From assembly GCA_902620455.1 (NCBI GenBank), contig CACNIG010000006.1, positions 1-64,000 on the forward strand: a stretch of DNA of 64,000 nt, given 5' to 3'. The notes under the pieces are model-generated. The model saw only the letters and a program-made list of their open reading frames with translations. It made no database searches and was not told the origin of the DNA. The stretch is from an uncultured Bacteroidota bacterium (GTDB lineage: Bacteria; Bacteroidota; Bacteroidia; Flavobacteriales; Flavobacteriaceae). This document shows, one piece after another, positions 16,530 to 33,427 of the stretch (positions are counted from its first letter, which is position 1; each line of letters opens with the position of its first letter). Both the position numbers and the translations under genes were made by a program.

Positions 16530-16550
16530 ATAATATAACTAGTTTTGAAT

Positions 16551-17417
16551 ATGAAATACAGGAAACCTATTTTAGTAGCTGAGATTGGCTGTAATCACAT
16601 GGGAAGTATAGAAATTGCACTAGATCTTATAAAAATTGCAAAAGATTGTGGAGCAGATTATGCCAAGTTTCAAAAAAGAACAAATAAAGAGTTGTTATCA
16701 AAGGATCAGTACAATGCTCCTCATCCTAATCCTGTTAATTCTTATGGAGACACATATGGAGAGCATAGAGAAAAATTAGAATTTGATTTAAAAACTCATA
16801 TTAAGCTTAAAGATTTCTGTGAAAGTATAAATATTGGCTATTCTACCTCAGTTTGGGATATGACAAGTGCAAAAGAAATCGCAAGTATATCGCCTGATTA
16901 TATTAAAATACCATCTGCCATGAATAATCATATTGATCTTCTAGAATATTTAATTGAAAAATATTCTGGAGATATTCATATATCATCTGGTATGACATAC
17001 GACGAAGAGATATTAAAAATCCATTCTATGTTTGAAGCTAAAAAAGCTTTATCTAGACTAGTTGTTTATTCATGTACATCTGGTTATCCTGTGCCATCAG
17101 AAGATGTATGTCTTTTAGAGATAAATAAACTAAAAACAGTTTTTGGAGATAAAATTAATCAATATGGTTTTTCTGGTCATCATAAGGGAGTGGCTATAGA
17201 TATAGCAGCATATACATTAGGTGCAGTTTGGATTGAAAGACATTTTACTAAAGATAGAACTTGGAAGGGGACTGACCATGCAGCATCATTAGAGCCTCAA
17301 GGTCTTCAGAAATTAAGTAGAGATTTAGTAAATACACATAAAGCATTAAGTTATAAAAGCTCAGAGATACTTCAAATTGAAAAGGTACAAAGAGATAAAT
17401 TAAAATTCAATGGATAA
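16551..17417 (+). CDS. NeuB-family nonulosonate synthase lacking the SAF domain
   Basis: 288 residues from ATG 16551; a TTG six bases earlier is less likely. NeuB barrel motifs appear in order: VAEIGCNHMG, ADYAKFQKR (substrate Lys), DYIKIPSAMNNHIDLL, ISSGMTYDEEI, SCTSGYPVPSEDV, GFSGHHKG, WIERHFTKDR and TDHAASLEP. The enzyme condenses PEP with a sugar or sugar phosphate to a nine- or eight-carbon keto acid. The chain stops just after the barrel; the C-terminal antifreeze-like SAF domain of typical 340-350-residue NeuB is absent, and the usual SDHT has become SGHH. The substrate may differ from ManNAc. Confidence 0.85.
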   Translation: MKYRKPILVAEIGCNHMGSIEIALDLIKIAKDCGADYAKFQKRTNKELLSKDQYNAPHPNPVNSYGDTYGEHREKLEFDLKTHIKLKDFCESINIGYSTSVWDMTSAKEIASISPDYIKIPSAMNNHIDLLEYLIEKYSGDIHISSGMTYDEEILKIHSMFEAKKALSRLVVYSCTSGYPVPSEDVCLLEINKLKTVFGDKINQYGFSGHHKGVAIDIAAYTLGAVWIERHFTKDRTWKGTDHAASLEPQGLQKLSRDLVNTHKALSYKSSEILQIEKVQRDKLKFNG

Positions 17418-18076
17418 TGGTAAGTGTATTTATGCCCTTAAGATCAGGTTCAAAATCAATTACCAATAAAAATATTAAATTATTTAATGGAAAACCTCTT
17501 TGTTATTGGGCTTTAAAAGCTTGTCAGGATAGTAATTTAATTAATGAAATAATTGTTGCAATTGATTCCAAAAAATACAAAAATATCATATCTAATTTTA
17601 AGTTTGATAAAATAAATTTCTATAATAGGAAACCAGTTAATTCCAAAGATATATCTTCTACTGAAAGTGTAATTTTAGAATATCTTTCTACTAATACTCT
17701 TCCATTTGATTCAATTTTTATATTAGTTCAAGCTACATCACCTCATATAAAATCAATTGAACTTGATGAAATGATTTTAAAATCTCAATCGAAGAACAAA
17801 GACATTGTAAGTTGTGTTAGGTTAAAAAGATTTATTTGGGGTGAAAATGGTGTTCCTATAAATTATAACATTAATAAAAGACCAAGGCGGCAAGATTTTG
17901 AAGGATTATTAGTTGAGAACGGTGCAGTCTATATCTCAAGAGTAAAAAAAATCATTGAAAGTAATTGTAGGGTAAGTGGAAGAATAAGTTTATACGAAAT
18001 GAATGAAAATTCTTTTTTTGAAATCGATGAAGATCAAGATTTTTTGATTTCAGAATTATTAATGAAAAGATTTTAA
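17417..18076 (+). CDS. CMP-nonulosonate (acylneuraminate) cytidylyltransferase
   Basis: 219 residues. The N-terminal nucleotide-binding signature RSGSKSITNKNIKLFNGKPL matches NeuA-type enzymes (RxGSKGIxxKNIxxxxGKPL), followed by KDISSTESVILEYL and FILVQATSPH, where the Asp/Gln/Thr-Ser-Pro segment binds CTP-Mg. Later IEIDEDQD-like residues (FFEIDEDQDF) form the metal site. It activates a nonulosonic acid as its CMP derivative. The start codon overlaps the NeuB-like stop, so synthase and activator are translationally coupled. Confidence 0.9.
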   Translation: MVSVFMPLRSGSKSITNKNIKLFNGKPLCYWALKACQDSNLINEIIVAIDSKKYKNIISNFKFDKINFYNRKPVNSKDISSTESVILEYLSTNTLPFDSIFILVQATSPHIKSIELDEMILKSQSKNKDIVSCVRLKRFIWGENGVPINYNINKRPRRQDFEGLLVENGAVYISRVKKIIESNCRVSGRISLYEMNENSFFEIDEDQDFLISELLMKRF

Positions 18077-20350: not shown

Positions 20351-21355
20351 ATGAGCACTTTACTAATAACAGGAGGTACAGGTTCTTTTGGGAAATCAGT
20401 TCTTAAAAAATACATTAACAATAAGAAATTTAATGAAATTAGAATCTTTTCAAGAGATGAAAAAAAACAGGATGACCTCAGAAATTCAATTAATTCTTCA
20501 AAATTAAAATTCTACATAGGAGACATAAGAGATAAAGATTCAGTCAACAAAGTTGTAGATGGAGTAGACTTTATTTTTCATGCAGCAGCATTAAAGCAAG
20601 TACCATCTTGTGAATTCTTTCCAATACAAGCAGTAAAAACAAACATCCTTGGAACTAATAATCTGTTATCAATTGCAAAGGCTAAAAATGTAAAAAAAGT
20701 TGTGGTCTTAAGTACAGATAAAGCTGCATATCCAATTAATGCTATGGGTATGTCTAAAGCACTTATGGAGAAAGTAATGATAGCTAACTCTAGAGATCTC
20801 AAAAATTCAAAAAATATTTTTTGCGGAACTAGATATGGTAATGTTATGGCTTCTAGAGGTTCAGTAATTCCCCTATTTATTGAACAAGCTAAGAATAATT
20901 CTCAAATTACTATAACTAATCCTAATATGACAAGGTTTATGATGAATCTATCTGATGCTGTTAACTTAGTTATGTATGCATTTGAAAATGGTAAAAACGG
21001 AGAAATATATGTTCAGAAATCTCCTGCAACTACCATAGAAAACTTAGCTAAGGCAATAATTGATATCTATAACTCAAAGTCAAAAATAAAATTTATAGGA
21101 ATTAGACATGGTGAGAAGATGTATGAGACTTTAGTAACAAAAGAGGAAATGTCAATGTCAATTGATTTAAAAAAATATTTTAAAATAGTACCTGATGTAC
21201 GGGACTTAAATTATAATAAGTATTTTAAAGAAGGTAATAATAATAATTCTGTATCTGAGTATAATTCTAATAATACAGAAATTCTAAATATTAATCAAAT
21301 GAAAAAAATGTTATTACAGCTACCTGAAATCAAAAAAGATTTAAATTTAATCTAA
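20351..21355 (+). CDS. fnlA: UDP-GlcNAc 4,6-dehydratase/5-epimerase (CapE/FnlA-like)
   Basis: 334 residues. NAD motif TGGTGSFGKSVLKKY, then SRDEKKQDDLR, HAAALKQVPSCEFFP and LSTDKAAYPINAMGMSKALM. The usual SDR catalytic Tyr is Met here (GMSKALMEK), a hallmark of the CapE/FlaA1/PseB branch. The enzyme starts conversion of UDP-GlcNAc toward UDP-N-acetyl-L-fucosamine. The next two genes encode the remaining two steps, which settles the assignment over other FlaA1-like dehydratases. Confidence 0.88.
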   Translation: MSTLLITGGTGSFGKSVLKKYINNKKFNEIRIFSRDEKKQDDLRNSINSSKLKFYIGDIRDKDSVNKVVDGVDFIFHAAALKQVPSCEFFPIQAVKTNILGTNNLLSIAKAKNVKKVVVLSTDKAAYPINAMGMSKALMEKVMIANSRDLKNSKNIFCGTRYGNVMASRGSVIPLFIEQAKNNSQITITNPNMTRFMMNLSDAVNLVMYAFENGKNGEIYVQKSPATTIENLAKAIIDIYNSKSKIKFIGIRHGEKMYETLVTKEEMSMSIDLKKYFKIVPDVRDLNYNKYFKEGNNNNSVSEYNSNNTEILNINQMKKMLLQLPEIKKDLNLI

Positions 21356-21361
21356 TCTCAT

Positions 21362-22468
21362 TTGAGAATTTTAATTTCAGGACATACAGGATTTTTAGGT
21401 AAACACTTGTTAAGAGTGTTAAAGACATCTAATCTAGATTTAAAAACTAATTTTTTAGAAAAAAATGATTTTAAAGATCCAGCCGTTTTAGGCTCAAAGA
21501 TTTTAAAAAATGATATTATTTTTCATTTTGCTGGTGTAAATAGGGACATTAATGAGAAAGAAGTATTTGATAAAAATAATTTAATAAATGAATCTCTTTT
21601 AAAAGCTTTAAGGGACAGTTCATTTAATGGTAAACTTATTTTTTCATCATCAATCCAAGAAAAAAGCGGCACATTATATGGAGAAGCAAAGAGAGATGCA
21701 AGAATAAAATTTTTAAATCTTTCAAAAGAATTAAATTTTAAATTCTACGGATTATTACTTCCAAATATTTTTGGACCCTTTTGTAAGCCTTTCTATAATT
21801 CTTTTATATCAACTTTTTCATTTGAAATTATATCAAATAAAATACCTAAAATTAAAGATGATAAAGAAATATCTTTAATGTATGTTGGTGATTTAATGGA
21901 TAACCTGATAAAAATTATATCAGATTCAGAAATAAACTTTAAAGAGAATATATATATTAAAAAAGTATCAACAGTTCTATCGAAACTTAGCAACTTTAAT
22001 GATGAATATATTAAAAAAGGAATTATGCCAGATATTAATTCACATTTTGACTTATGTCTTTTTAATACTTTTCGATCCTATATTAATTATCAAGAATTCT
22101 TTCCAAGAAAATATAATAACTTTACAGATGATAGAGGGTCATTTACTGAACTAATAAGGTTTAGTTCTAGAGGCCAATCATCTTTTTCAATAACTAATAA
22201 GAATATCATAAGAGGTAATCATTTTCATACAAGAAAAATTGAAAGATTTTCTGTTATAAAAGGTAAGGCAATAATTAAACTTAGGGAAGTTCTATCAAAT
22301 GATGTAATAGAACTTTATTTTGATGGAGAAACCCCTTCATATATTGACATTCCTATTTGGTATACTCATAGTTTAAGCAATATTGGAAAAGAAGAATTAA
22401 TTACTTGTTTTTGGATTAATGAACATTATGATGATGAAACCTCTGATACCTACATTGAAAATGTTTAA
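21362..22468 (+). CDS. fnlB: Bifunctional epimerase/reductase with C-terminal cupin (CapF/FnlB-like)
   Basis: 368 residues from a TTG start, six bases after the fnlA stop; no ATG fits before the NAD motif SGHTGFLGKHLL. Residues 1-240 form a short SDR domain with YGEAKRDA (Tyr-x3-Lys) and GLLLPNIFGPFCKPF. Residues 255-368 form a cupin with GNHFHTRKIERFSVIKGKA and IPIWYTHSL, the zinc-binding layout known from Staphylococcus CapF. It performs C3 epimerisation and C4 reduction in UDP-L-FucNAc synthesis. Confidence 0.9.
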   Translation: MRILISGHTGFLGKHLLRVLKTSNLDLKTNFLEKNDFKDPAVLGSKILKNDIIFHFAGVNRDINEKEVFDKNNLINESLLKALRDSSFNGKLIFSSSIQEKSGTLYGEAKRDARIKFLNLSKELNFKFYGLLLPNIFGPFCKPFYNSFISTFSFEIISNKIPKIKDDKEISLMYVGDLMDNLIKIISDSEINFKENIYIKKVSTVLSKLSNFNDEYIKKGIMPDINSHFDLCLFNTFRSYINYQEFFPRKYNNFTDDRGSFTELIRFSSRGQSSFSITNKNIIRGNHFHTRKIERFSVIKGKAIIKLREVLSNDVIELYFDGETPSYIDIPIWYTHSLSNIGKEELITCFWINEHYDDETSDTYIENV

Positions 22469-22483
22469 CTTAGTTATGTCAAT

Positions 22484-23629
22484 ATGAGTTTAGTTAAAAT
22501 TAAATTAGTTACAATTATTGGAACGAGGCCTGAAATTATAAGGTTATCTTCTATCATCAAAAGACTTAATAAATCAAAGATTTTTGACCACTATTTAATC
22601 CATACTGGACAGAACTATGACTTTGAATTGAATGAAATCTTTTTTAAAGATCTTGATATACCTAAGCCAAATAAATTTTTAAACCTTGCAAAAGATTCTC
22701 CATCTAAAACAATTGGCAATATCCTTATTAATATTGATGATGCGCTTGACGAGATTAAGCCTGACGCAGTTCTTGTTTTAGGTGACACAAACAGTTGCTT
22801 GTCTGTAATTTCTGCAAAAAAGAAAAAAATTCCAATTTTTCATTTTGAAGCTGGTAATAGGTGCTTTGACCAACGTGTACCAGAAGAAACTAATAGGGTA
22901 ATTGTTGACCACATATCAGATATTAATATGACATATAGCTCAATAGCTCGGGACTACCTAATACGTGAAGGATTAAACCCTGATAGAATAATTAAAATAG
23001 GCTCACCAATGCTCGAAGTTATTGAAGACAACATTTTAAAAATTAATAACTCTAAAATTCTAAATAAATTAAATTTACAAAAAGATAAATTCTTCCTAGT
23101 TTCATGCCACAGAGAAGAAAATGTGGATATTGTTAAACACCTAAAAACTTTACTCCAATCTTTAAACTCTTTGTCAAAAGAATATAAATATCCAATTATA
23201 TTCCCAATCCATCCAAGAACTAAAAAGCAAATTGAAAGCAATAAAATAAAGCTAGACAGTAAAATTCAATTAATTAAACCCTTAAGCTTCTCCGATTATT
23301 GTAGCCTTCAAAAAGACTCATTTGTAGTCCTTTCTGATAGTGGGACGATATTTGAGGAATCCTCTATCCTTAATTTTAGAGCCTTAAATCTAAGAGAATC
23401 TCATGAGAGACCAGAGGCTGTTGAAGAAACAACAGTTGTTATCTCAGGTCTAAAGAAAGAAAGAATTCTACAAGGGATAGAAATTCTACAAAATCAATTT
23501 ACTGGTTTAAAAAGAAACATAAATATTGTAAATGATTATAATGTTAAAAATGTTTCTTTTAAAGTAGAAAGATTAATTGCATCTTATATAGATTACGTAA
23601 ATAGAGTAGTTTGGCAAAAAGAATTTTAA
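22484..23629 (+). CDS. fnlC: UDP-HexNAc 2-epimerase (CapG/FnlC-like, WecB family)
   Basis: 381 residues. WecB-family motifs: IIGTRPEIIRLSSI, HTGQNYD, VLVLGDTNSCL, FHFEAGNRCFDQRVPEE, SCHREENV, IHPRTKKQI and VLSDSGTIFEESSI. It is the third enzyme of the FucNAc cassette, giving UDP-L-FucNAc from its talo isomer. The HREEN and FEAGNRCFDQRVPEE details fit the FnlC subgroup. Its 3' end overlaps the following transferase by 19 bases. Confidence 0.9.
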   Translation: MSLVKIKLVTIIGTRPEIIRLSSIIKRLNKSKIFDHYLIHTGQNYDFELNEIFFKDLDIPKPNKFLNLAKDSPSKTIGNILINIDDALDEIKPDAVLVLGDTNSCLSVISAKKKKIPIFHFEAGNRCFDQRVPEETNRVIVDHISDINMTYSSIARDYLIREGLNPDRIIKIGSPMLEVIEDNILKINNSKILNKLNLQKDKFFLVSCHREENVDIVKHLKTLLQSLNSLSKEYKYPIIFPIHPRTKKQIESNKIKLDSKIQLIKPLSFSDYCSLQKDSFVVLSDSGTIFEESSILNFRALNLRESHERPEAVEETTVVISGLKKERILQGIEILQNQFTGLKRNINIVNDYNVKNVSFKVERLIASYIDYVNRVVWQKEF

Positions 23630-24822
23630 TTTACACCAATCACTTTTATCCAGAACAATTTAAAATAAATGAAATTGTTGATTGGCTTTCTAATGAGCCT
23701 TATCATGTTAGAGTCATTACATGTATTCCAAATTATCCAGGGGGAAAGTTTTATAAAGGGTATAATATTAACTCCTTATTTAGAAAACATATTAATGATA
23801 ACATTATAATCAATAGGTTACCCTTGATCCCAAGAGGAAATGGCAACTATTTTATTCGAATTCTTAGCTATTTAAGCTATTTTATATCAGCATTCTTTTT
23901 TAATTTTTATATAATTTTTTTTAAAAAAAAATATGATTATGTATTTGTACACCATACTAGCCCTTTTTTAATTGCAATACATCCAATTATGTATGGTTTC
24001 TTCCATAAAACAACTAAGATTTTATGGGATCTAGATTTATGGCCAGACACACTAAAAGTGTTAAATATTATTCGCTCAAAATTGGTACTCAACACTCTTG
24101 AGCTTTCTGTAAAGTTTATTTACAGTTTCTATGATAAAATATTAATTGGTTCTAAAGGTTTTGAAGGATTATTAAAAAAAAGATTTGATGGAGAAATTAT
24201 TTATTTTCCAAATTGGTCTGAGTCTGTCATTGAGGATAATAAAAACTTAAAAGCTGTAAATCTTGATATTCCTGATAATCATTTTACAATAATGTACACT
24301 GGTAACATAGGTAAAGCTCAAGGCTTTGATGTTTTAGTTGATGTAATTAAACAGCTTAAGGATAAAAATATTTTTTGGATTTTTATTGGGGAAGGAAGTT
24401 TAAAAAAAAATTTAATTATTGATCTTGATAATTTGAATTTATTAAATAAATGTAAATTTATAAATCAGATAGATATAGTTGATGTTCCCAGCTATTCTAA
24501 ACTGGCTGATGCAATGTTTTTTTCATTAAAAGATAATTATCTCTTTTCCAGAACTGTTCCTGCAAAAATGCAATCATATATGGCATTAGGAAAACCTATT
24601 ATTGCACTTATTAAAGGAGAAGGGGCTAAAATAATAAGGGACTCTAATTCAGGAATTGTAATATCAAATTCTGACACCAAAAAAATTGCCTCATCAATTA
24701 TCAATTTTTCAGAAACGAAAGAAACTGAATTAAATGAAATGGGAGAAAATGGTAGAAAGTTTTATCTAAATAACTTTAGTATTAGATTAAGGAAGAAACA
24801 ACTACTGAGTCTTTTTAAATAA
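23611..24822 (+). CDS. Glycosyltransferase family 4, probable FucNAc transferase (WbuB/WcaI-like)
   Basis: 403 residues from a TTG start within fnlC. It begins RILIYTNHFYPEQFKINEIV and contains VHHTSPFLIAIHPIM with a following hydrophobic stretch, ILWDLDLWPDTLKVLN, IMYTGNIGKAQGFDVLVDVI and FSRTVPAKMQSYMALGKPII. These match the WbuB/WcaI group that use UDP-L-FucNAc or related donors and sit beside fnlABC in other O-antigen clusters. Donor is inferred from location. Confidence 0.85.
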   Translation: MAKRILIYTNHFYPEQFKINEIVDWLSNEPYHVRVITCIPNYPGGKFYKGYNINSLFRKHINDNIIINRLPLIPRGNGNYFIRILSYLSYFISAFFFNFYIIFFKKKYDYVFVHHTSPFLIAIHPIMYGFFHKTTKILWDLDLWPDTLKVLNIIRSKLVLNTLELSVKFIYSFYDKILIGSKGFEGLLKKRFDGEIIYFPNWSESVIEDNKNLKAVNLDIPDNHFTIMYTGNIGKAQGFDVLVDVIKQLKDKNIFWIFIGEGSLKKNLIIDLDNLNLLNKCKFINQIDIVDVPSYSKLADAMFFSLKDNYLFSRTVPAKMQSYMALGKPIIALIKGEGAKIIRDSNSGIVISNSDTKKIASSIINFSETKETELNEMGENGRKFYLNNFSIRLRKKQLLSLFK

Positions 24823-25746
24823 AAAAATCATTTTACCGTTAGGAGACTTATGGTATTTTGGCTTATAATCAAGACTAAATAATTTAATATTATTCCACTT
24901 TTTTATATATAGGTAATTTAAAATAATTTGAAAATGAGTTGTTACATTAATACCTTTTTTAAATATTTTTTTTAACCAAAAGGGAATAAACAAACCATAA
25001 CATGCTTTTATAAAATTTTTCAAATTTTTTTTATGAAAAATAAAAACTTCACAACTAAAATTATATTTATTACCTGTATTTATCCAATTTTTTAACAGAG
25101 GCTCATGCTCACCATTCATCCTTCTCGTAAATTTTTTATTAATATCCATATTATTTTCGATTTTATATTTTTTTGAATATTCTATATCAAGCATAGCTTC
25201 AATTTGACTATTAGATATATAATTTGGCTGTCCTCTATCAAAACATAATAAGATTCCATTTGGTTTTAGGATTCTGCTAATTTCTTTAAAAGTTAAATCA
25301 AAGTTTTCTGAATGATGTATGGAATCAAAACCAACTACAAAATCAACAGAATTATTCTGAAATTTAGTTCTATTAAAGTCACCAATTATACAGTTTAACT
25401 TAGGTGAAGTTCCATTATAATCTGCAACTTTTTTCATCAAACCAAATGTCTCAGGAACCATTTCAAGAAGATATATATTTTCAATATTATCAAATATTTT
25501 CACTAAACTATTTGACAGAATTCCTGGACCAGAGCCAATTTCTAAACCAACACCACTTAGTTTTACATTAATTTTTTTACAAATTTCACTTATAAATTTT
25601 TTATGTTCATTTAAAGTAAAGTATGAGTATTCAAGTGAAATTTTATCAGGTGTTTCTTTTATCCAGTTTTTACAAGCATTATTATACTTCTTAACCCAAT
25701 CAATTTTGTTAATTTCTTTTATATCTAACCAGATTTGCTTTTTCAT
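24802..25746 (-). CDS. Class I SAM-dependent methyltransferase
   Basis: 314 residues. The Rossmann methyltransferase core lies at residues 60-170: VGLEIGSGPGILSNSL (motif I), IYLLEMVP (motif II acidic), DFVVGFDSIHHSENF (motif IV/post I) and FKEISRILKPNGILLCFDRG. The C-terminal part is basic and aromatic with no known domain seen. It runs against the glycan operon, overlapping the last transferase gene by 21 bases at the 3' ends. Methylation of a glycan, lipid or small metabolite is possible; no target can be named. Confidence 0.82.
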   Translation of the reverse strand: MKKQIWLDIKEINKIDWVKKYNNACKNWIKETPDKISLEYSYFTLNEHKKFISEICKKINVKLSGVGLEIGSGPGILSNSLVKIFDNIENIYLLEMVPETFGLMKKVADYNGTSPKLNCIIGDFNRTKFQNNSVDFVVGFDSIHHSENFDLTFKEISRILKPNGILLCFDRGQPNYISNSQIEAMLDIEYSKKYKIENNMDINKKFTRRMNGEHEPLLKNWINTGNKYNFSCEVFIFHKKNLKNFIKACYGLFIPFWLKKIFKKGINVTTHFQIILNYLYIKKWNNIKLFSLDYKPKYHKSPNGKMIFLFKKTQ

Positions 25747-25825: not shown

Positions 25826-26500
25826 ATGAATGATCTACTTGGTTTGAGTAATCTTGAGCTATCCTCAACAAGCTTATCTCAATTTATAATTGGATTCACA
25901 TTAACAGTGATATTATCCCTTATACTTAAGTGGGTTTATATTAAATACTCAAATTCTGTGTCAAATAAATCTATAATTGGAAATATTTTTCCACTTTTTG
26001 GTATTTCAATTTTTCTCATTGTAATCACAATTAAATCTAGTATAGTATTGTCACTTGGTCTTGTTGGAGCTCTATCTATAATAAGATTCAGAACAGCTAT
26101 AAAAGAGGCTGAGCAAATAGTTTATTTTTTAATCTTGACAGGAATGTCAATAGCAACTGCAGCTGGTTCATATTTCTTTCCATTTATACTCTTGTTATTT
26201 GTATATATTTACAATTATTACATCTATAACAATAAAAAAAGTGTTATACATTCTGTTAATGATCAACTTGTAATAACCCTCAAAACCATTTCAAATAATA
26301 AAATTGATGAGTTAGCAAATAAGCTAAATGAGAATGGAGTTAACGTTGAGATACAAAGTATAAACAAACAAGACGACTATGTAGTCTTGGTTTTTAAATT
26401 ATCAGATTTTGATCTTCATGCTTTAACAGTTGTTGAAGAATTTTTAAAAAAATCAAAGATACCTACAAAAGAGATTCAATTTTTTTCATCAACTGAATGA
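25826..26500 (+). CDS. DUF4956 membrane protein
   Basis: 224 residues. Membrane helices are at about 17-38, 50-70, 72-90 and 97-130, with the conserved family segment LGLVGALSIIRFRTAIKEAEQIVYF between helices, then a cytoplasmic ferredoxin-like C-terminal domain (VITLKTISNNKIDELANKL). DUF4956 has no established biochemical role but is repeatedly found next to VTC polyphosphate-polymerase and CotH genes, as here. A channel or exporter function for the polymer or a regulator of it is speculation. Its stop overlaps the CotH-like gene by four bases. Confidence 0.88.
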   Translation: MNDLLGLSNLELSSTSLSQFIIGFTLTVILSLILKWVYIKYSNSVSNKSIIGNIFPLFGISIFLIVITIKSSIVLSLGLVGALSIIRFRTAIKEAEQIVYFLILTGMSIATAAGSYFFPFILLLFVYIYNYYIYNNKKSVIHSVNDQLVITLKTISNNKIDELANKLNENGVNVEIQSINKQDDYVVLVFKLSDFDLHALTVVEEFLKKSKIPTKEIQFFSSTE

Positions 26501-28578
26501 AATATATTAAAAAATCAAAAAAAGCATTTCCTAATGCATTAGTTCTATTATTTATAATCTTTTTCGTCTGTGTTGGCTTCTTCCAAAAGGATATAATTAG
26601 TAGATCCATATTAACAATCAATCTGGGTAGTATCTATGTTGACTATTTAAATGAAAAAGCAGAGATCATTAACTATATAGAAAATAATAATATTGAGACA
26701 TTATCTTTATCGATGTCTCCAAACAATTATGTTAGACTACAAAAAGAAAGATCTAGTATGGTTAATAATTTTGTATTAACCGGTAAGCAGTGGTCTGGAG
26801 TTAATAATTATTTTAAGACCTCTGTTCTTGATAGAAATAATAATTCAATAAAAGCTGAAATAAAACTATTTGGTTTAAACCCAGATCACTTTAGAGATGT
26901 CAACGGGCATAGTTTTAGAATTAAGTTTGACGGAGGGAAAGGGTATGGTAACAAAAAAGTTAATTTTTTAAATCCTAGATCAAGAGATTTTATCACAGAC
27001 CCCTTATTAAATATAGTGTATTCAAAACTATATAACGGAATCGGAATTCAATATTTTCCGTACAGAATTATATTAAATAAAGCTGATTATGGAATTCTTT
27101 ATAGAGAGGATTTTTTTGATAAGTATTTGATAGAGGAAAATCAAAAAAGAGAAAGTGTGATTTTTGAGTTAGTAAATGACTCTATTAAGTTTAACTATAA
27201 AGGTGAAGATGATTCTTTAGAGAGTTTAGCTTTTGAGATTGAACAGTTATTTAAATATAATTATAGCGAATTCTTAAAAAGGATTGATATAAATAAAGTT
27301 AAAGGGGTAATGAAACTGGGCTTGTTGATAAATGACGAACATCCATTTAGTGATATAAATATGCATTGGTACTATAATCCAGTAACTGATTTAATTGAGC
27401 CTACTATCAGAGAAGGGTTTTTAAAAAGCATTGAGGAAATAAACCTTGATGCAATTGCTTCAAACAATAAAATAATAAATGATATTTATAACGAAGAAAT
27501 AAAGTTAGAAATATTATCTGAGCTTAAATCTGAAATTAATCTAATTGAAGATATAATAATTAAAGATCCGAAATATATTGAACTAAAAGAGGCTATGGTT
27601 GGATTTAAAGATATAATTGAAAAAAAAGAAGAAACTTTAATTTCTAATATTAATTATATCAAAAAATTAACATCAAGAGAGAATAGAAAAAATGAAGAAG
27701 AGGTTGAATATATATATTTTACAAATAATATTACATTATATAAAGATCTAACAATAAAAGAGAATCAAAAATTAGTTATCCTACCAGGAGTAGATCTAAA
27801 TCTTAATAATTCATATCTTAAAGTTCTAGGAGGATTTGAGGCTGTAGGAGAAAAAAATAGTAAAATTAAAATCTTTGGTTCTGGAAAATCTGGCTCCATT
27901 TTTTTCAACTCTAATAAAAAAATAAAAATTGATAATGTCCTTTTTTTTAATCTAACAAATGAAGTTTCTAAATTTAATCAGCCTTCATCAATAACATTTT
28001 ATGAGTGTGAATTAGTGGATATATCAAATTCTGAGTTTTCAAATAATCTTAGAGGGGATGACTTTTTAAATTTCTTTAGATCAAAAGGTGTATATATATC
28101 AAATTCTAGTTTCCATAATATTTTAAATGATGCAATTGACTCAGATTTTTCTAAATTAATCATAGAAAACTCTAAATTCTATGACATAGGTAACGATGCA
28201 GTTGATGGGTCTGGAAGTTATGTTAAAATTATCAATTCTTCGTTTAAAGATGTAAAGGACAAGGCTATTAGCGCAGGAGAGAATAGCACTTTTGAGATTA
28301 ACAATAATTTTTTTCAAAATAATGAAATAGCTTTGGTATCAAAAGATGCATCCAAACTTTATGTTGATAATGCAATACTGTCAAATAATGAACTTGATTT
28401 TACATCATTTATTAAGAAAAAGTTTTTTGGACCGAGTGAATCTTATTTTAGTAATACAAATATTAGTAATTATTTAATTGAGAATCTTTCAATTATAAAA
28501 GGTATTGATTCAATTAATTATTCAACAAACGTTGAAACTAAATTATATGGGAATATTTATGGAAGAGCATCAAATTAA
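26497..28578 (+). CDS. CotH-like protein fused to a right-handed beta-helix
   Basis: 693 residues. A signal anchor (ALVLLFIIFFVCVGFF) is followed by a CotH-like region at about 50-310: AEIKLFGLNPDHF, HSFRIKFDGGKGYGNKKVNF, GILYREDFFDKYLIEE and INDEHPFSDINMHWYYNPV. CotH proteins are atypical secreted protein kinases. The usual final WDxD-type metal motif reads EPTIREG, so catalysis may be lost. Residues about 400-640 form a parallel beta-helix with recurring ISNSSFHN, IENSKFYDIGNDAVDGSG and IINSSFKDV rungs, common in glycan-binding or lyase-like proteins. It probably acts outside the cytoplasmic membrane. Confidence 0.75.
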   Translation: MKYIKKSKKAFPNALVLLFIIFFVCVGFFQKDIISRSILTINLGSIYVDYLNEKAEIINYIENNNIETLSLSMSPNNYVRLQKERSSMVNNFVLTGKQWSGVNNYFKTSVLDRNNNSIKAEIKLFGLNPDHFRDVNGHSFRIKFDGGKGYGNKKVNFLNPRSRDFITDPLLNIVYSKLYNGIGIQYFPYRIILNKADYGILYREDFFDKYLIEENQKRESVIFELVNDSIKFNYKGEDDSLESLAFEIEQLFKYNYSEFLKRIDINKVKGVMKLGLLINDEHPFSDINMHWYYNPVTDLIEPTIREGFLKSIEEINLDAIASNNKIINDIYNEEIKLEILSELKSEINLIEDIIIKDPKYIELKEAMVGFKDIIEKKEETLISNINYIKKLTSRENRKNEEEVEYIYFTNNITLYKDLTIKENQKLVILPGVDLNLNNSYLKVLGGFEAVGEKNSKIKIFGSGKSGSIFFNSNKKIKIDNVLFFNLTNEVSKFNQPSSITFYECELVDISNSEFSNNLRGDDFLNFFRSKGVYISNSSFHNILNDAIDSDFSKLIIENSKFYDIGNDAVDGSGSYVKIINSSFKDVKDKAISAGENSTFEINNNFFQNNEIALVSKDASKLYVDNAILSNNELDFTSFIKKKFFGPSESYFSNTNISNYLIENLSIIKGIDSINYSTNVETKLYGNIYGRASN

Positions 28579-29233
28579 TAAATATAGATACGAGAGAAAA
28601 TATAAAATTCAAAATACTTATTTAAGTAAGTTTTTAAGTGATGTTTATTCTAAGGATTTTATTATTTTATTTCCAAAAAGAAGAGTTAATAATATATATT
28701 TAGATGATCATAATTTCTCTTCACTTCATCATAACTTCGACGGTTTGTCTAATAGAGAAAAATACAGAATTAGATGGTATGGAAAGCAATTTGAAGAATC
28801 CAATAAAAACTTTGAGATAAAAATAAAAAGTGAATTTCTTAACACAAAAGAAAATTTTGACTTGGGTTTGCTTAAACTAAATAGTTTCAAACATATAAAT
28901 GAGTTTTATTCAATGGTTAAAAGTGAACTAGCTAGTTCAAATAAAATAAATTTTATTACTAAGATATATAATAAGTTTCCAACATTGTTTAACTCATATG
29001 AAAGGATGTATTTTGAAAATAAACTAAAGCAAATTAGACTCACAATAGACAATAATTTAATTTATTACTCACCGTTAACTAATATAAATTACATTGAAAA
29101 ATATATTATTGTTGAATTAAAATATAATAATAAAATAGAACTTGACAATAATTTAAAAAATCTATCTTATACTAGATACTCAAAATATGTTAAAGGTACA
29201 TCTCAAACTTCTTTTTCTAGTATTATTTATTAA
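28559..29233 (+). CDS. VTC domain, polyphosphate polymerase-like protein
   Basis: 224 residues from ATG 28559 (ATG 28547 is also possible; a longer ATT-encoded start is unlikely), overlapping the CotH gene. The tunnel-type VTC fold shows its conserved basic and acidic residues: YRYERKY, REKYRIRWYG, FEIKIKSE, SYERMYFEN, IRLTIDNNL and VELKYNN. These correspond to the Lys/Arg ring and the metal-binding Glu of yeast Vtc4, so the active site seems complete. The family polymerises phosphate from ATP. No SPX or membrane domain is attached; the DUF4956 partner may supply the membrane part. Confidence 0.88.
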   Translation: MEEHQINKYRYERKYKIQNTYLSKFLSDVYSKDFIILFPKRRVNNIYLDDHNFSSLHHNFDGLSNREKYRIRWYGKQFEESNKNFEIKIKSEFLNTKENFDLGLLKLNSFKHINEFYSMVKSELASSNKINFITKIYNKFPTLFNSYERMYFENKLKQIRLTIDNNLIYYSPLTNINYIEKYIIVELKYNNKIELDNNLKNLSYTRYSKYVKGTSQTSFSSIIY

Positions 29234-30119
29234 TAATATTTTTTCTCAAGTTCAAAATGAAAAAATACTTTTTGTTGGACATGCCTTTGGGTCTCATTCT
29301 GATAATGACTCATCTTTAGACCCGATTTTATTGGAATTTACAAGCTCTGAGAAAAACTACAGTAAAATTATTCTTGGGGGTGATTTTATATATGATTGTA
29401 ATGACAAGATTGAGGTTGAAAATTTTAAAAGTTTTATAAATAATAATAATATAAATTTTGTTCTTGGTAACCATGAAAATTGTGAAGAAATTAAATCTAT
29501 TGCCAAATTAAATTTTGGGGGAATTAACTATTATGAGATTATAAATCAAAACCTATTAGTATATCTAAATACTACAATTGAATCTGAGGATCAATATATG
29601 GATACAATTTCATTTTTAGAGGGTATATTAGACGCATATAATTATAATAATTTATTAATATTTTCCCATCAAGTAATTTTCTCTAAATCAGACTGGTATT
29701 TGAGAACCAATTCAAGGACTCACTATGAATATGGAAATAGAGTTTTCAATTTTATTTACAAAAAGTTTTATGAGAAATCATTAATGGTTTATTTCTTTAC
29801 TGGTGATATTGGTGCATATAGCTATACACCCTACTCTTTTTATCATAAAGACAAAAACATGAATTATGTTGCATCTGGAATTGGAAATAAAGATCATTAT
29901 AAGGGAGTAAATATTAATATTAGTGATGAAGTTGATTTTAATTTTATCGATTTAAAAACTAGCTTGTCAGAACAAAAGGATACATATTCAAAAAAATGGA
30001 ATCAACTATATCAATTACCAAAACTTATATTACATAAGATAAAGAAAAACTACAAGTTTTTTTTAACATTATTTCTGCTTTTTATATCCTTATATTTGTA
30101 CAATAGAAAAAAAGTATAA
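29187..30119 (+). CDS. Exported, membrane-tethered metallophosphoesterase-like protein
   Basis: 310 residues. Signal peptide LKLLFLVLFINNIFSQ, C-terminal helix FFLTLFLLFISLYLY before a basic tail, so the domain is on the far side of the membrane. Calcineurin-like elements are ILGGDFIYD (GDxxxD-like), NFVLGNHENC (GNHE), LIFSHQVIF and VYFFTGDIGAY. The first DxH motif and the final GHxH are not intact (GHAFGSH and TGDIG), so metal binding may be altered. Start ATG 29187 overlaps the VTC gene by 47 bases, an unusually long overlap suggesting coupling. Phosphate ester hydrolysis related to the VTC product is plausible. Confidence 0.72.
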   Translation: MLKVHLKLLFLVLFINNIFSQVQNEKILFVGHAFGSHSDNDSSLDPILLEFTSSEKNYSKIILGGDFIYDCNDKIEVENFKSFINNNNINFVLGNHENCEEIKSIAKLNFGGINYYEIINQNLLVYLNTTIESEDQYMDTISFLEGILDAYNYNNLLIFSHQVIFSKSDWYLRTNSRTHYEYGNRVFNFIYKKFYEKSLMVYFFTGDIGAYSYTPYSFYHKDKNMNYVASGIGNKDHYKGVNINISDEVDFNFIDLKTSLSEQKDTYSKKWNQLYQLPKLILHKIKKNYKFFLTLFLLFISLYLYNRKKV

Positions 30120-31537
30120 TGAATTTTTTTAAAAAATACTATAAGCAATTTATTGGAATATCTGTTATAATTATATTTCTAAGTATTGCTACACCATACA
30201 TATCATATTCATTGAAAGATAAAATTCCTGAGACAATTTATTTAAGATTAAGCTGGCTAAAAAGCATAATTTTCAGACAGGACTTTGGTTTTTATAAATA
30301 TGAGATTAAGCTAGGAGACCAGTTTGAATATATTTCAAAATATATTAATGAAGAAAATTTTGAGTTTTCTGTTAGAGAAAGAAAGTTTAACGATAAAATT
30401 AAATATTATAAGTTAATGCCTATTTTCCCGGCTGTTGGATATGATGAAATTAATACAGCATACATAGATTTTCATGATGATAATTTAATCTACCTAACAA
30501 AGAATGGGATTGTTTTTAAAACCAATTTTCAAGATCAGAAAATTACTTTTTCCCCAATTAAATCTAATATTTATAATTTTTTAGAAAAAAGAATTGAAGA
30601 AAAAAATGCAAGTATAAATTATTTTAATCCATATACAATTTCTAAGTTTGGTATTAAAGATCTTCATATTGATAAAAATGAAATATACATATCATATGTC
30701 AAAAGGTTTAATAATAATGAGTATAACACTTCAATAATAAAAGGCGAAATAAAAGATTCAATAATTTTTAAAGAATTCTTCTCGCCAAATAACTTCATTT
30801 CAAGTAAAATAAGAGAGTTCTCACCAATTCAGGCTGGAGGTAAAATAAGAAATTATAAGAAAGATTCTATTATTCTATCTGTAGGTGAATTTAGAGACAG
30901 ATTAAAGTCTCAAGATCTATCTTCAGTTAATGGAAAAATCATAGCAATCAGCAAAAAAAATGCAGGTTACAGAATAGTCTCTCGTGGACATAGAAATCCT
31001 CTTGGTCTTGATTATAATAAGAATTATGATCAAATTATTTCTACAGATATGGGTCCATATGGTGGAGATGAGATTAATCTACAAAATAATACAAACAAAA
31101 CTGAAAATTTTGGATGGCCCATTTCTAACTATGGGGTTCATTATGCAATTGAAGCCTCGAAAAATGATTCTCACACACCGGACATAAAGAGAGTTCTTAA
31201 AGATGCTCCTTTATATAAGTCTCATAAAGATTATGGTTTTATTGAACCAATTAAATACTATGAATTAAATCCTGCTGTTGCTGAAGTGAGATTTATAAAG
31301 AATGAAAATAATCAAGTTGAATTTATCCTCTCAACACTTGGTCTAGACACTATTGAAAGACCACTTGCTAATCATTTAATTCACTATAAATATTACATTG
31401 ATAAAGAAAAAATAGAACTATTAAATAAGTATAATGTTGCTGAAAGAGTTAGAGATATTGCTTTCGATGAGAAAAAACGCAAATTATATTATGTGGGGGA
31501 GACTAGTGGTGTATTAGGAATTCTTAATTTAAATTAA
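30119..31537 (+). CDS. PQQ-dependent glucose/sorbosone dehydrogenase-like beta-propeller, membrane anchored
   Basis: 472 residues. N-terminal anchor FIGISVIIIFLSIATPYISY, then a six-bladed propeller of the GSDH/soluble glucose dehydrogenase family: IRNYKKDSIILSVGEFRDR, GHRNPLGLDYNKNYDQIIST, GGDEINLQNNTNKTENFGWP and VAERVRDIAFDEKKRKLYYV. The RGHRNPLGL loop and GGDEIN are hallmark PQQ and calcium-binding neighbourhoods, but no dehydrogenase activity can be inferred with certainty. Its ATG overlaps the upstream stop. Its role beside VTC/CotH is unknown. Confidence 0.82.
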   Translation: MNFFKKYYKQFIGISVIIIFLSIATPYISYSLKDKIPETIYLRLSWLKSIIFRQDFGFYKYEIKLGDQFEYISKYINEENFEFSVRERKFNDKIKYYKLMPIFPAVGYDEINTAYIDFHDDNLIYLTKNGIVFKTNFQDQKITFSPIKSNIYNFLEKRIEEKNASINYFNPYTISKFGIKDLHIDKNEIYISYVKRFNNNEYNTSIIKGEIKDSIIFKEFFSPNNFISSKIREFSPIQAGGKIRNYKKDSIILSVGEFRDRLKSQDLSSVNGKIIAISKKNAGYRIVSRGHRNPLGLDYNKNYDQIISTDMGPYGGDEINLQNNTNKTENFGWPISNYGVHYAIEASKNDSHTPDIKRVLKDAPLYKSHKDYGFIEPIKYYELNPAVAEVRFIKNENNQVEFILSTLGLDTIERPLANHLIHYKYYIDKEKIELLNKYNVAERVRDIAFDEKKRKLYYVGETSGVLGILNLN

Positions 31538-31544
31538 TAAATAA

Positions 31545-32399
31545 ATGATCAAGACTCTTGTTACTGGTGGCGCCGGATTTATCGGGTCTAATCTAATTAG
31601 TGAACTAAAAAAAAATAATTTTCAAATAACATCTTTGGATAATTACTCGACTGGTTCAAAATTAAATGAAATAGATGGTGTAAAATATATAAATGATGAT
31701 ATTTTAAATATTAAATCATTAGATATTGACGTAGAATTATGTTTTCATCTCGCAGCTCAATCTAGGGTCCAACCATCTTTTGAAAGACCTGAAGAAAGCC
31801 TTAAAGTTAACGTCGTAGGAACTTCAAGAATAATGGAGTGGGCAAAGAAAAATAAAATTAGAGTTATTTATGCTGGCTCTTCATCAAAACATCATGATCC
31901 TTCAGATTCACCGTATGCAATGTATAAGTTTCTTGGAGAAGAAGTTTGCAAGTTATATAAGAAATCTTACAATGTTAATGTTGATATAGCAAGATTTTAT
32001 AATGTTTATGGACCAGGAGAGAATACAGATGAAAAGTATGGTAATGTTATTGGAATATGGAAAACAAAGCTACTTAAGGGAGAATCAATACCAATTGTCG
32101 GTGATGGAGAACAAAAAAGAGATTTTATACATGTAAAAGATGTTGTTGATGGGTTAATAAAGATATCTCAAGCTGACATAAATCAAAGTGATGCTTGGGA
32201 ATTAGGGTCTGGTATAAATTATAGCATTAATCAACTTTATGAAATATTTAAAAGAAAATTTAATGTAGATTCAATTAGTATACCTGATCAACCTGGTAAT
32301 TACAGAGAAACACTCAGAAAAAATGATGATACTTTAAAATTATTAAATTGGCACCCAAAAGATAGACTGAAATCTCACATTGAAAATCTTAAATTATGA
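31545..32399 (+). CDS. NAD-dependent epimerase/dehydratase, UDP-sugar 4-epimerase-like
   Basis: 284 residues. GGAGFIGSNLI at the N-terminus, HLAAQSRVQPSFERPEESL, SSSKHHDPSDSPYAMYKFLG (Tyr-x3-Lys), ARFYNVYGPGEN, GDGEQKRDFIHVKDVVDGL and a short C-terminal domain. These match the UDP-GlcNAc/UDP-Glc 4-epimerase group. Seven bases separate it from the propeller gene and the next gene overlaps it by four bases, so it belongs to the VTC operon. Confidence 0.85.
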   Translation: MIKTLVTGGAGFIGSNLISELKKNNFQITSLDNYSTGSKLNEIDGVKYINDDILNIKSLDIDVELCFHLAAQSRVQPSFERPEESLKVNVVGTSRIMEWAKKNKIRVIYAGSSSKHHDPSDSPYAMYKFLGEEVCKLYKKSYNVNVDIARFYNVYGPGENTDEKYGNVIGIWKTKLLKGESIPIVGDGEQKRDFIHVKDVVDGLIKISQADINQSDAWELGSGINYSINQLYEIFKRKFNVDSISIPDQPGNYRETLRKNDDTLKLLNWHPKDRLKSHIENLKL

Positions 32400-33427
32400 A
32401 AAATGTTCTAATTACAGGTGGTGCCGGATTTATAGCTCACCATTTAATATTTTATTTGCTAAATAAAACTGACTGGAATATTATTTCAATAGATAGATTA
32501 GACTATAGTGGAAACTTAAATAGATTAGATAGAATACTAAAAGAGCTTAAACCAAATGTAAGATCAAGAGTTAAAGTAATTTACCATGATTTAAAATCTG
32601 CAATTAATCCATGGATAAAAAAAGATTTAGGGGATATAGATATTATCCTCCACTTAGCAGCTGGCTCTCATGTAGATAGAAGTATTGATTATCCTATGGA
32701 ATTTGTTTTAGATAATGTTGTAGGAACAGCAAATATATTAGATTATGCAAGATATATTAATGAAAAGAAGGGATTAGAGAGGTTTATATACTTTAGTACA
32801 GATGAAGTATTTGGTCCAGCACCTAAAGGAGTTGATTATACTGAAAATGATAGATATAACTCAACAAATCCATATAGCGCAACAAAAGCTGGAGGAGAAG
32901 AACTTGCAGTAGCTTACGAGAATACTTATAGACTTCCTGTCTATATTACACATACCATGAATGTTTTTGGTGAAAGACAACACCCTGAAAAATTTATACC
33001 GATGTGTATTAAAAAAATAAGAGATGGAGAGATTGTAACTATTCATTCAGATAAAACAAAACAAAATCCAGGTTCGCGACACTATATTCATGCTGAGGAT
33101 GTAGCTGAAGCTATACATTTCCTTCTAACAAAGAAAATTCACTATGAATCCGACTTTGGGGGAGCTAAATGCCCTAAGTTTAACATTGTCGGTTCAGAGG
33201 AGATTAATAACCTGGAACTTGCAAAAATAATTGCAGATTCTCAGGGAAAAGAATTAAAATATGAAATGGTAGATTTTCATTCCTCAAGACCTGGCCATGA
33301 TCTAAGGTATTCCCTATCAGGTGAGAAAATGAAAAAATTAGGATGGCAACCATCAATTAAGCTTACTGAAAGGATAAAACAAGTTGTTGAATGGTCTCTC
33401 AAAAACGATAATTGGATAGAACTATAA
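32396..33427 (+). CDS. NAD-dependent sugar-nucleotide dehydratase (RmlB-like)
   Basis: 343 residues. GGAGFIAHHLI NAD site, DRLDYSGNLNRL, HLAAGSHVDRSIDYPMEF and FSTDEVFGPAPKG, where the Thr-Asp-Glu triad matches dTDP-glucose 4,6-dehydratases, then YSATKAGGEELA (Tyr-x3-Lys) and MNVFGERQHPEKFIP. The C-terminal HSSRPGHDLRYSLSGEKMKKLGW also fits RmlB. The substrate could be dTDP-glucose or another NDP-hexose; no rmlA, rmlC or rmlD lies in the window. Last gene of the operon. Confidence 0.85.
   Translation: MKNVLITGGAGFIAHHLIFYLLNKTDWNIISIDRLDYSGNLNRLDRILKELKPNVRSRVKVIYHDLKSAINPWIKKDLGDIDIILHLAAGSHVDRSIDYPMEFVLDNVVGTANILDYARYINEKKGLERFIYFSTDEVFGPAPKGVDYTENDRYNSTNPYSATKAGGEELAVAYENTYRLPVYITHTMNVFGERQHPEKFIPMCIKKIRDGEIVTIHSDKTKQNPGSRHYIHAEDVAEAIHFLLTKKIHYESDFGGAKCPKFNIVGSEEINNLELAKIIADSQGKELKYEMVDFHSSRPGHDLRYSLSGEKMKKLGWQPSIKLTERIKQVVEWSLKNDNWIEL

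Follow-up and report, generated by a model that had tools for sequence, protein, structure and literature searches.

The window analysed here is a 64,000-nucleotide stretch from the genome of an uncultured member of the Flavobacteriaceae (contig CACNIG010000006.1), of which positions 25826–33427 carry seven open reading frames, all on the + strand. Judged by gene neighbourhoods, the conserved cassette in this run is composed of the first four genes, predicted to encode a DUF4956 membrane protein, a CotH-like/beta-helix protein, a VTC domain protein and an exported metallophosphoesterase, while genes 5–7 are mostly unrelated neighbours. An initial annotation of this DNA had considered all seven genes as one module; the gene neighbourhoods split the cassette from the last three. 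From the protein families it encodes, the cassette probably makes polyphosphate in the cytosol and handles phosphate at the cell surface.

A CotH/beta-helix profile was scanned against approximately 85,000 species genomes; it found 305 relatives, and 80 loci were retained from these. The complete trio of DUF4956, CotH-like and VTC genes was present at 54 loci, or 52 when duplicates were removed. At every one of the 52 non-redundant loci the trio lies on a single strand; the internal gaps are 60 bases or less in 116 of 120 cases, and the genes are arranged in eight different orders. Such co-directional, tight packing combined with eight gene orders indicates that the trio is one unit, rearranged on many occasions, and its repeated assembly argues for a function. 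The trio therefore stands as the initial annotation described it, a recurring unit with no agreed function. By record titles, the hosts are found among the Bacteroidota, KSB1, Myxococcales and Phycisphaerae, along with a gammaproteobacterium and the archaeon Methanogenium, and this occurrence offers cultured marine hosts for tests, such as Dokdonia pacifica (L103) and Aquimarina (L104 and L143). Radical-SAM, amine-oxidase and methyltransferase neighbours of the trio loci were judged incidental, and a search of plasmids for DUF4956 gave no match.

The fourth gene (29187–30119, + strand) encodes a metallophosphoesterase of 310 amino acids (aa) with a signal peptide and a C-terminal membrane helix, and the protein is predicted to be exported. 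The signal sequences of this protein and the CotH-like protein were read straight from their translations. It scores just under the PF00149 cut-off (19.9 against 21.5 bits) and was assigned by alignment to a cassette-specific subfamily. A member of this subfamily lies no more than three genes from the trio at 24 of 52 loci; the exported metallophosphoesterase, which the initial annotation added to the module, is a true recurring partner. With one profile, 22 of 40 trio genomes yielded a phosphoesterase of the same subfamily at E ≤ 1e-25. Among 298 Flavobacteriales, the sole full-length match was the window's own and the rest were partial (E = 4e-22 or worse), in a search that scored fewer candidates per genome than in the trio-genome set and used a profile built from trio-linked copies. 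Residues H32, G65-D66, GNH94-96, H161 and G206-D207 are invariant in 20 members. Of the PF00149 motifs, GD, GNH and the subsequent His are present (G65-D66, GNH94-96, H161); the first motif, DxH, retains its His and has lost its Asp, and the last, GHxH, has lost both His residues and reads GD, then mostly (I/V/L)G. The metallophosphoesterase next to the L068 trio belongs to another subfamily (the A3 profile found none in that genome).

A second recurring neighbour of the trio is an inorganic pyrophosphatase whose N-terminus is of the lipoprotein type. It occurs at 10 trio loci, at 8 of these within three genes, and PF00719 was confirmed for one such protein. In L107 (5859-8055), sulfate-activation-type genes encoding a PAPS-reductase-domain protein and an EF-Tu-type GTPase directly precede the pyrophosphatase and the trio; since the pyrophosphatase abuts these genes, part of the link between pyrophosphatase and trio may be independent. 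Genes of equal sizes occupy the corresponding position in L116 and L126. A PPK1 gene (684 aa) upstream of the L084 trio and a Ppx/GppA gene upstream of the L087 trio were both confirmed with Pfam, and by sequence L084 and L097 each hold PPK1- and Ppx/GppA-type genes. A 637-aa gene upstream of the L087 trio, initially labelled PPK, is an acetyl-CoA synthetase. As judged from family assignments, the phosphoesterase, pyrophosphatase, PPK1 and Ppx/GppA neighbours connect the trio with the chemistry of phosphate and polyphosphate.

The VTC domain protein (gene 3; 28559–29233, + strand; 224 aa) is of the polyphosphate polymerase-type triphosphate tunnel family, with a score of 74.5 bits against PF09359 (cut-off 23). 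It is soluble, having no membrane segments, and is predicted to be cytosolic. The VTC profile aligns to yeast Vtc4 structures, and the nearest solved relatives are Vtc4 and Vtc2. From an alignment of 34 sequences, all 22 invariant positions are kept in the window protein, and the tunnel motifs RxExK, KxRxRWY, ExKxK, YxRxY, RxTxD, ExK and SK are conserved in all members including the window copy. The DUF4956 protein (gene 1; 25826–26500, + strand; 224 aa) scored 52.1 bits against PF16316 (cut-off 30.6). Its AlphaFold2 model (predicted local distance difference test, pLDDT = 80) presents five N-terminal membrane helices and an ACT-like C-terminal domain, for which a fold search identified ACT domains and the C-terminal domain of MgtC (PDB: 2lqj), all as weak matches. 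Even without CotH, VTC adjoins DUF4956 at 33 of 38 Flavobacteriales VTC loci. The window genome has a second DUF4956 gene (G000:C1:54725-55018; L001:618-1893), after which an outer-membrane-like protein of 224 aa is encoded. Its locus resembles the common VTC-DUF4956-outer-membrane protein locus of Flavobacteriales, but the sole VTC gene of the genome lies in the window.

With these proteins in mind, we tentatively favor, at somewhat less than an even chance, a mechanism in which DUF4956 links the synthesis of polyphosphate in the cytosol with reactions of phosphate on a glycan at the cell surface. The VTC protein, acting in the cytosol on its membrane partner DUF4956, would use ATP to make polyphosphate; DUF4956 would serve to anchor, to regulate by means of its ACT domain, and perhaps to pass the polyphosphate chain across the membrane. 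On the outside, the anchored CotH-like/beta-helix protein would act on the surface glycan as a factor that transfers or binds phosphate or polyphosphate, and the exported phosphoesterase would trim or recycle released phosphate, in some relatives along with the lipoprotein pyrophosphatase. Several points weigh against this mechanism. The export of polyphosphate is a presumed step, and in the fold search with the DUF4956 model the ACT-like part alone was matched, with nothing resembling a channel. The activities of all cassette members are predicted ones. In the available part of a report on Streptococcus intermedius, no Pel phenotype was found for the polyphosphate-polymerase gene (PMC12345266). 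Lastly, with a limited probe set, the polysaccharide genes nearby numbered fewer than two at 30 of 49 trio loci, and thus the glycan link is not universal.

The link to a surface glycan is drawn from the host exopolysaccharide operon described below, an enrichment of polysaccharide genes, the beta-helix fold and the S. intermedius mutants. At least two polysaccharide genes are nearby at 19 of 49 trio loci, compared to 2 of 32 VTC loci that lack CotH. In Gram-positive bacteria, cotH, a polyphosphate polymerase gene and DUF4956 (with DUF4832) are accessory genes beside pelDEADAFG (PMC7112168), and the S. intermedius report describes altered Pel levels and lower aggregation upon loss of the DUF4956 or CotH gene (PMC12345266). 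That 2025 paper reported no such synteny outside of Pel loci. While the trio is contiguous in the window, it is not beside Pel synthesis genes, and a search for PelG found none in the window genome and one in 40 trio genomes; membership of a Pel accessory module was therefore rejected. These data also bear on a somewhat unlikely alternative in which the cassette is a regulator of polysaccharide output: DUF4956 would sense a ligand, VTC and CotH would relay a phosphate-based control of the synthase, and phosphate would not become part of the polymer. An accessory position beside Pel operons, the altered Pel of the mutants and the ACT-like domain of DUF4956 are all consistent with regulation; however, 39 of 40 trio genomes are without PelG, polysaccharide genes are often not nearby, and exported phosphatases fit surface chemistry better.

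The CotH-like/right-handed beta-helix protein (gene 2; 26497–28578, + strand; 693 aa) has an N-terminal signal anchor and is predicted to be extracytoplasmic. A Pfam search gave no family match, and since searches of PDB sequences with a CotH profile and with the single sequence also gave nothing, a fold search was used. An AlphaFold2 model built from 30 homologs (mean pLDDT = 87) was matched by Foldseek to the Bacillus cereus CotH kinase (PDB: 5jd9, E = 7.8e-11; 5jd9 and 5jda both at about 1e-10) and next to enzymes with a beta-helix, namely polysaccharide lyases and AlgG, an alginate epimerase. Homologs from L078 and L079 are above the PF08757 cut-off. The assignment of gene 2 as a CotH/beta-helix protein is thus upheld by the model and its fold match.

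The expected kinase residues present some contrast to the fold. Canonical Bacteroidota CotH proteins contain WD ... P(Y/W)DxD, upon which the profile alignment places GxxH ... PIGFD of the trio proteins. Where the catalytic Asp would stand, 79 of 83 trio homologs have His, and the window protein has H282; at the metal-binding position, 58 of 86 have Asp and 22 have Glu, the window protein having Glu306. From the 23-residue spacing in a canonical CotH protein, L195, the aligned positions would correspond to D228 and D251 of B. subtilis CotH, where mutants at either residue are reported to be catalytically inactive and the D228Q substitution inactivates (PMC7821199). L195 itself is encoded in the window genome (G000:C15:14342-15454) and has the usual catalytic Asp motif and a PF08757 score of 220 bits. 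With His at the catalytic-Asp position, a plain ATP-dependent kinase activity is doubtful, and the protein may instead carry out another phosphotransfer reaction or have a non-catalytic role. The initial annotation had described CotH proteins as atypical secretory kinases, of which the kinase fold is retained here and the catalytic Asp is not. Accordingly, it is unlikely that the protein is an active secretory kinase of surface proteins for which VTC and DUF4956 supply or balance phosphate; while the fold and an Asp or Glu at the metal-binding position in 80 of 86 homologs would suit such a role, the His substitution, the effect of D228Q and the lack of ATP expected outside the inner membrane speak against it. 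At seven loci (L116, L124, L126, L129, L130, L144 and L154), two CotH-like genes flank VTC-DUF4956 in the order coth-vtc-duf-coth, and the upstream copy has a degenerate active-site region in the alignments of L116, L129, L144 and L154.

A low probability is also given to the VTC domain being a phosphatase or other triphosphate-tunnel enzyme in a cassette for phosphate scavenging. The triphosphate-tunnel superfamily is functionally diverse (PMC4641920) and the trio has two phosphatase-like partners, yet the closest solved relatives are Vtc4 and Vtc2 and the protein retains the residues that are invariant across the family. A further, improbable reading makes polyphosphate the phosphate donor outside the membrane, where ATP is absent: VTC would make the polymer, DUF4956 would let it through, and the CotH-like enzyme, which has His where kinases have the catalytic Asp, would move phosphate from it to a surface glycan bound by its beta-helix, perhaps by way of a phosphohistidine.

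The genes on either side of the cassette may be considered in terms of a host exopolysaccharide operon. Its upstream part (20351–24822, + strand), identified from Pfam/NCBIfam and congener gene order, encodes FnlA-, CapF- and WecB-like enzymes and a WcaI-type glycosyltransferase, and is interrupted by the cassette. After the cassette come a GSDH-type beta-propeller with an N-terminal anchor (gene 5; 30119–31537, + strand; 472 aa; PF07995, 86.6 bits, cut-off 25), an SDR epimerase (gene 6; 31545–32399, + strand), an RmlB-like 4,6-dehydratase (gene 7; 32396–33427, + strand) and rplU. Genes 6 and 7 score above the Pfam cut-off as SDR epimerase/dehydratases. On re-reading, the overlapping run and all six junctions were exactly as first annotated: from gene 1 onward, overlaps of 4 (26497–26500), 20 (28559–28578), 47 (29187–29233) and 1 base (30119), a 7-base gap (31538–31544) and an overlap of 4 bases (32396–32399).

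Congeners L174, L176 and L178 have the gene order glycosyltransferase, epimerase, RmlB-like, rplU, rpmA, ahcY without the cassette, and the order in L179 is almost the same; in L174 the SDR epimerase directly follows the glycosyltransferase. Across 25 congeneric genomes, the RmlB-like gene is present in 12 and the CotH-like gene in 3. The window and congener G310, which has the identical seven-gene order, have the cassette and propeller placed between the glycosyltransferase and epimerase. In G318 (L081/L181), a four-gene cassette without the propeller is located between rpmA and ahcY, and the exopolysaccharide operon is uninterrupted with its epimerases kept. Since congeners have the operon without the cassette and one has the cassette elsewhere, the cassette is, from gene order, an insertion into a genus-wide exopolysaccharide operon, and the epimerase genes, its penultimate and last, are the cut-off tail. 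The propeller is a local addition outside the conserved cassette: its one known ortholog is in G310 (57% identity), and none was found at the other trio loci, including that of L081. Neither the propeller, with its lone ortholog in the same genus, nor the two epimerases, whose operon stands without the cassette, can be kept in the module first proposed; the idea that the last four genes may be chance neighbours applies to genes 5–7 and not to gene 4. A single extended pathway of all seven genes for a phosphate-containing or sugar-modified polymer, as first suggested, is very improbable and was rejected on gene neighbourhoods: the overlapping gene ends and equal order in G310 favor it, but the L081 cassette lies elsewhere, propeller-less, with the epimerases still in the polysaccharide operon, and trio loci other than those of the window and G310 lack this propeller. 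An opposite-strand methyltransferase gene (24802–25746) between the glycosyltransferase and the cassette has no counterpart there in congeners L080 and L081. Further upstream, NeuB and cytidylyltransferase genes (16545–18076) suggest a nonulosonic acid in the host polysaccharide.

Within the literature searched, it is new that the trio is spread independently of Pel, that it has a dedicated phosphoesterase and exported pyrophosphatases as partners, and that its CotH-like protein carries an Asp-to-His change; the trio itself was already known. As the trio is separable and widespread without Pel, a vague accessory cluster becomes a testable phosphate-chemistry system. The closest comparison is with the Gram-positive Pel accessory genes (PMC7112168; SIR_1592-1594 in PMC12345266), which place these three families side by side, are tied to a surface polysaccharide and likewise have no agreed function. 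In contrast, the window genome lacks PelG, a metallophosphoesterase is added, and the CotH part is fused to a beta-helix, in place of the FN3 domain of SIR_1594 (PMC12345266). The VTC-DUF4956-outer-membrane protein loci of Flavobacteriales share the adjoining VTC and DUF4956 genes; they encode an outer-membrane-like protein of approximately 213 aa and lack the CotH-like protein and the phosphoesterase subfamily. In yeast, the VTC catalytic domain is paired with a membrane protein. The residues of the triphosphate-tunnel catalytic domain of that complex (Vtc4/Vtc1) match the window VTC protein, whereas the membrane partner in the window is MgtC/ACT-like and a separate polypeptide. Finally, the Bacillus CotH spore-coat kinase shares its fold with the first half of gene 2, which differs in its His at the catalytic-Asp position, its additional C-terminal beta-helix and a sequence below Pfam detection.

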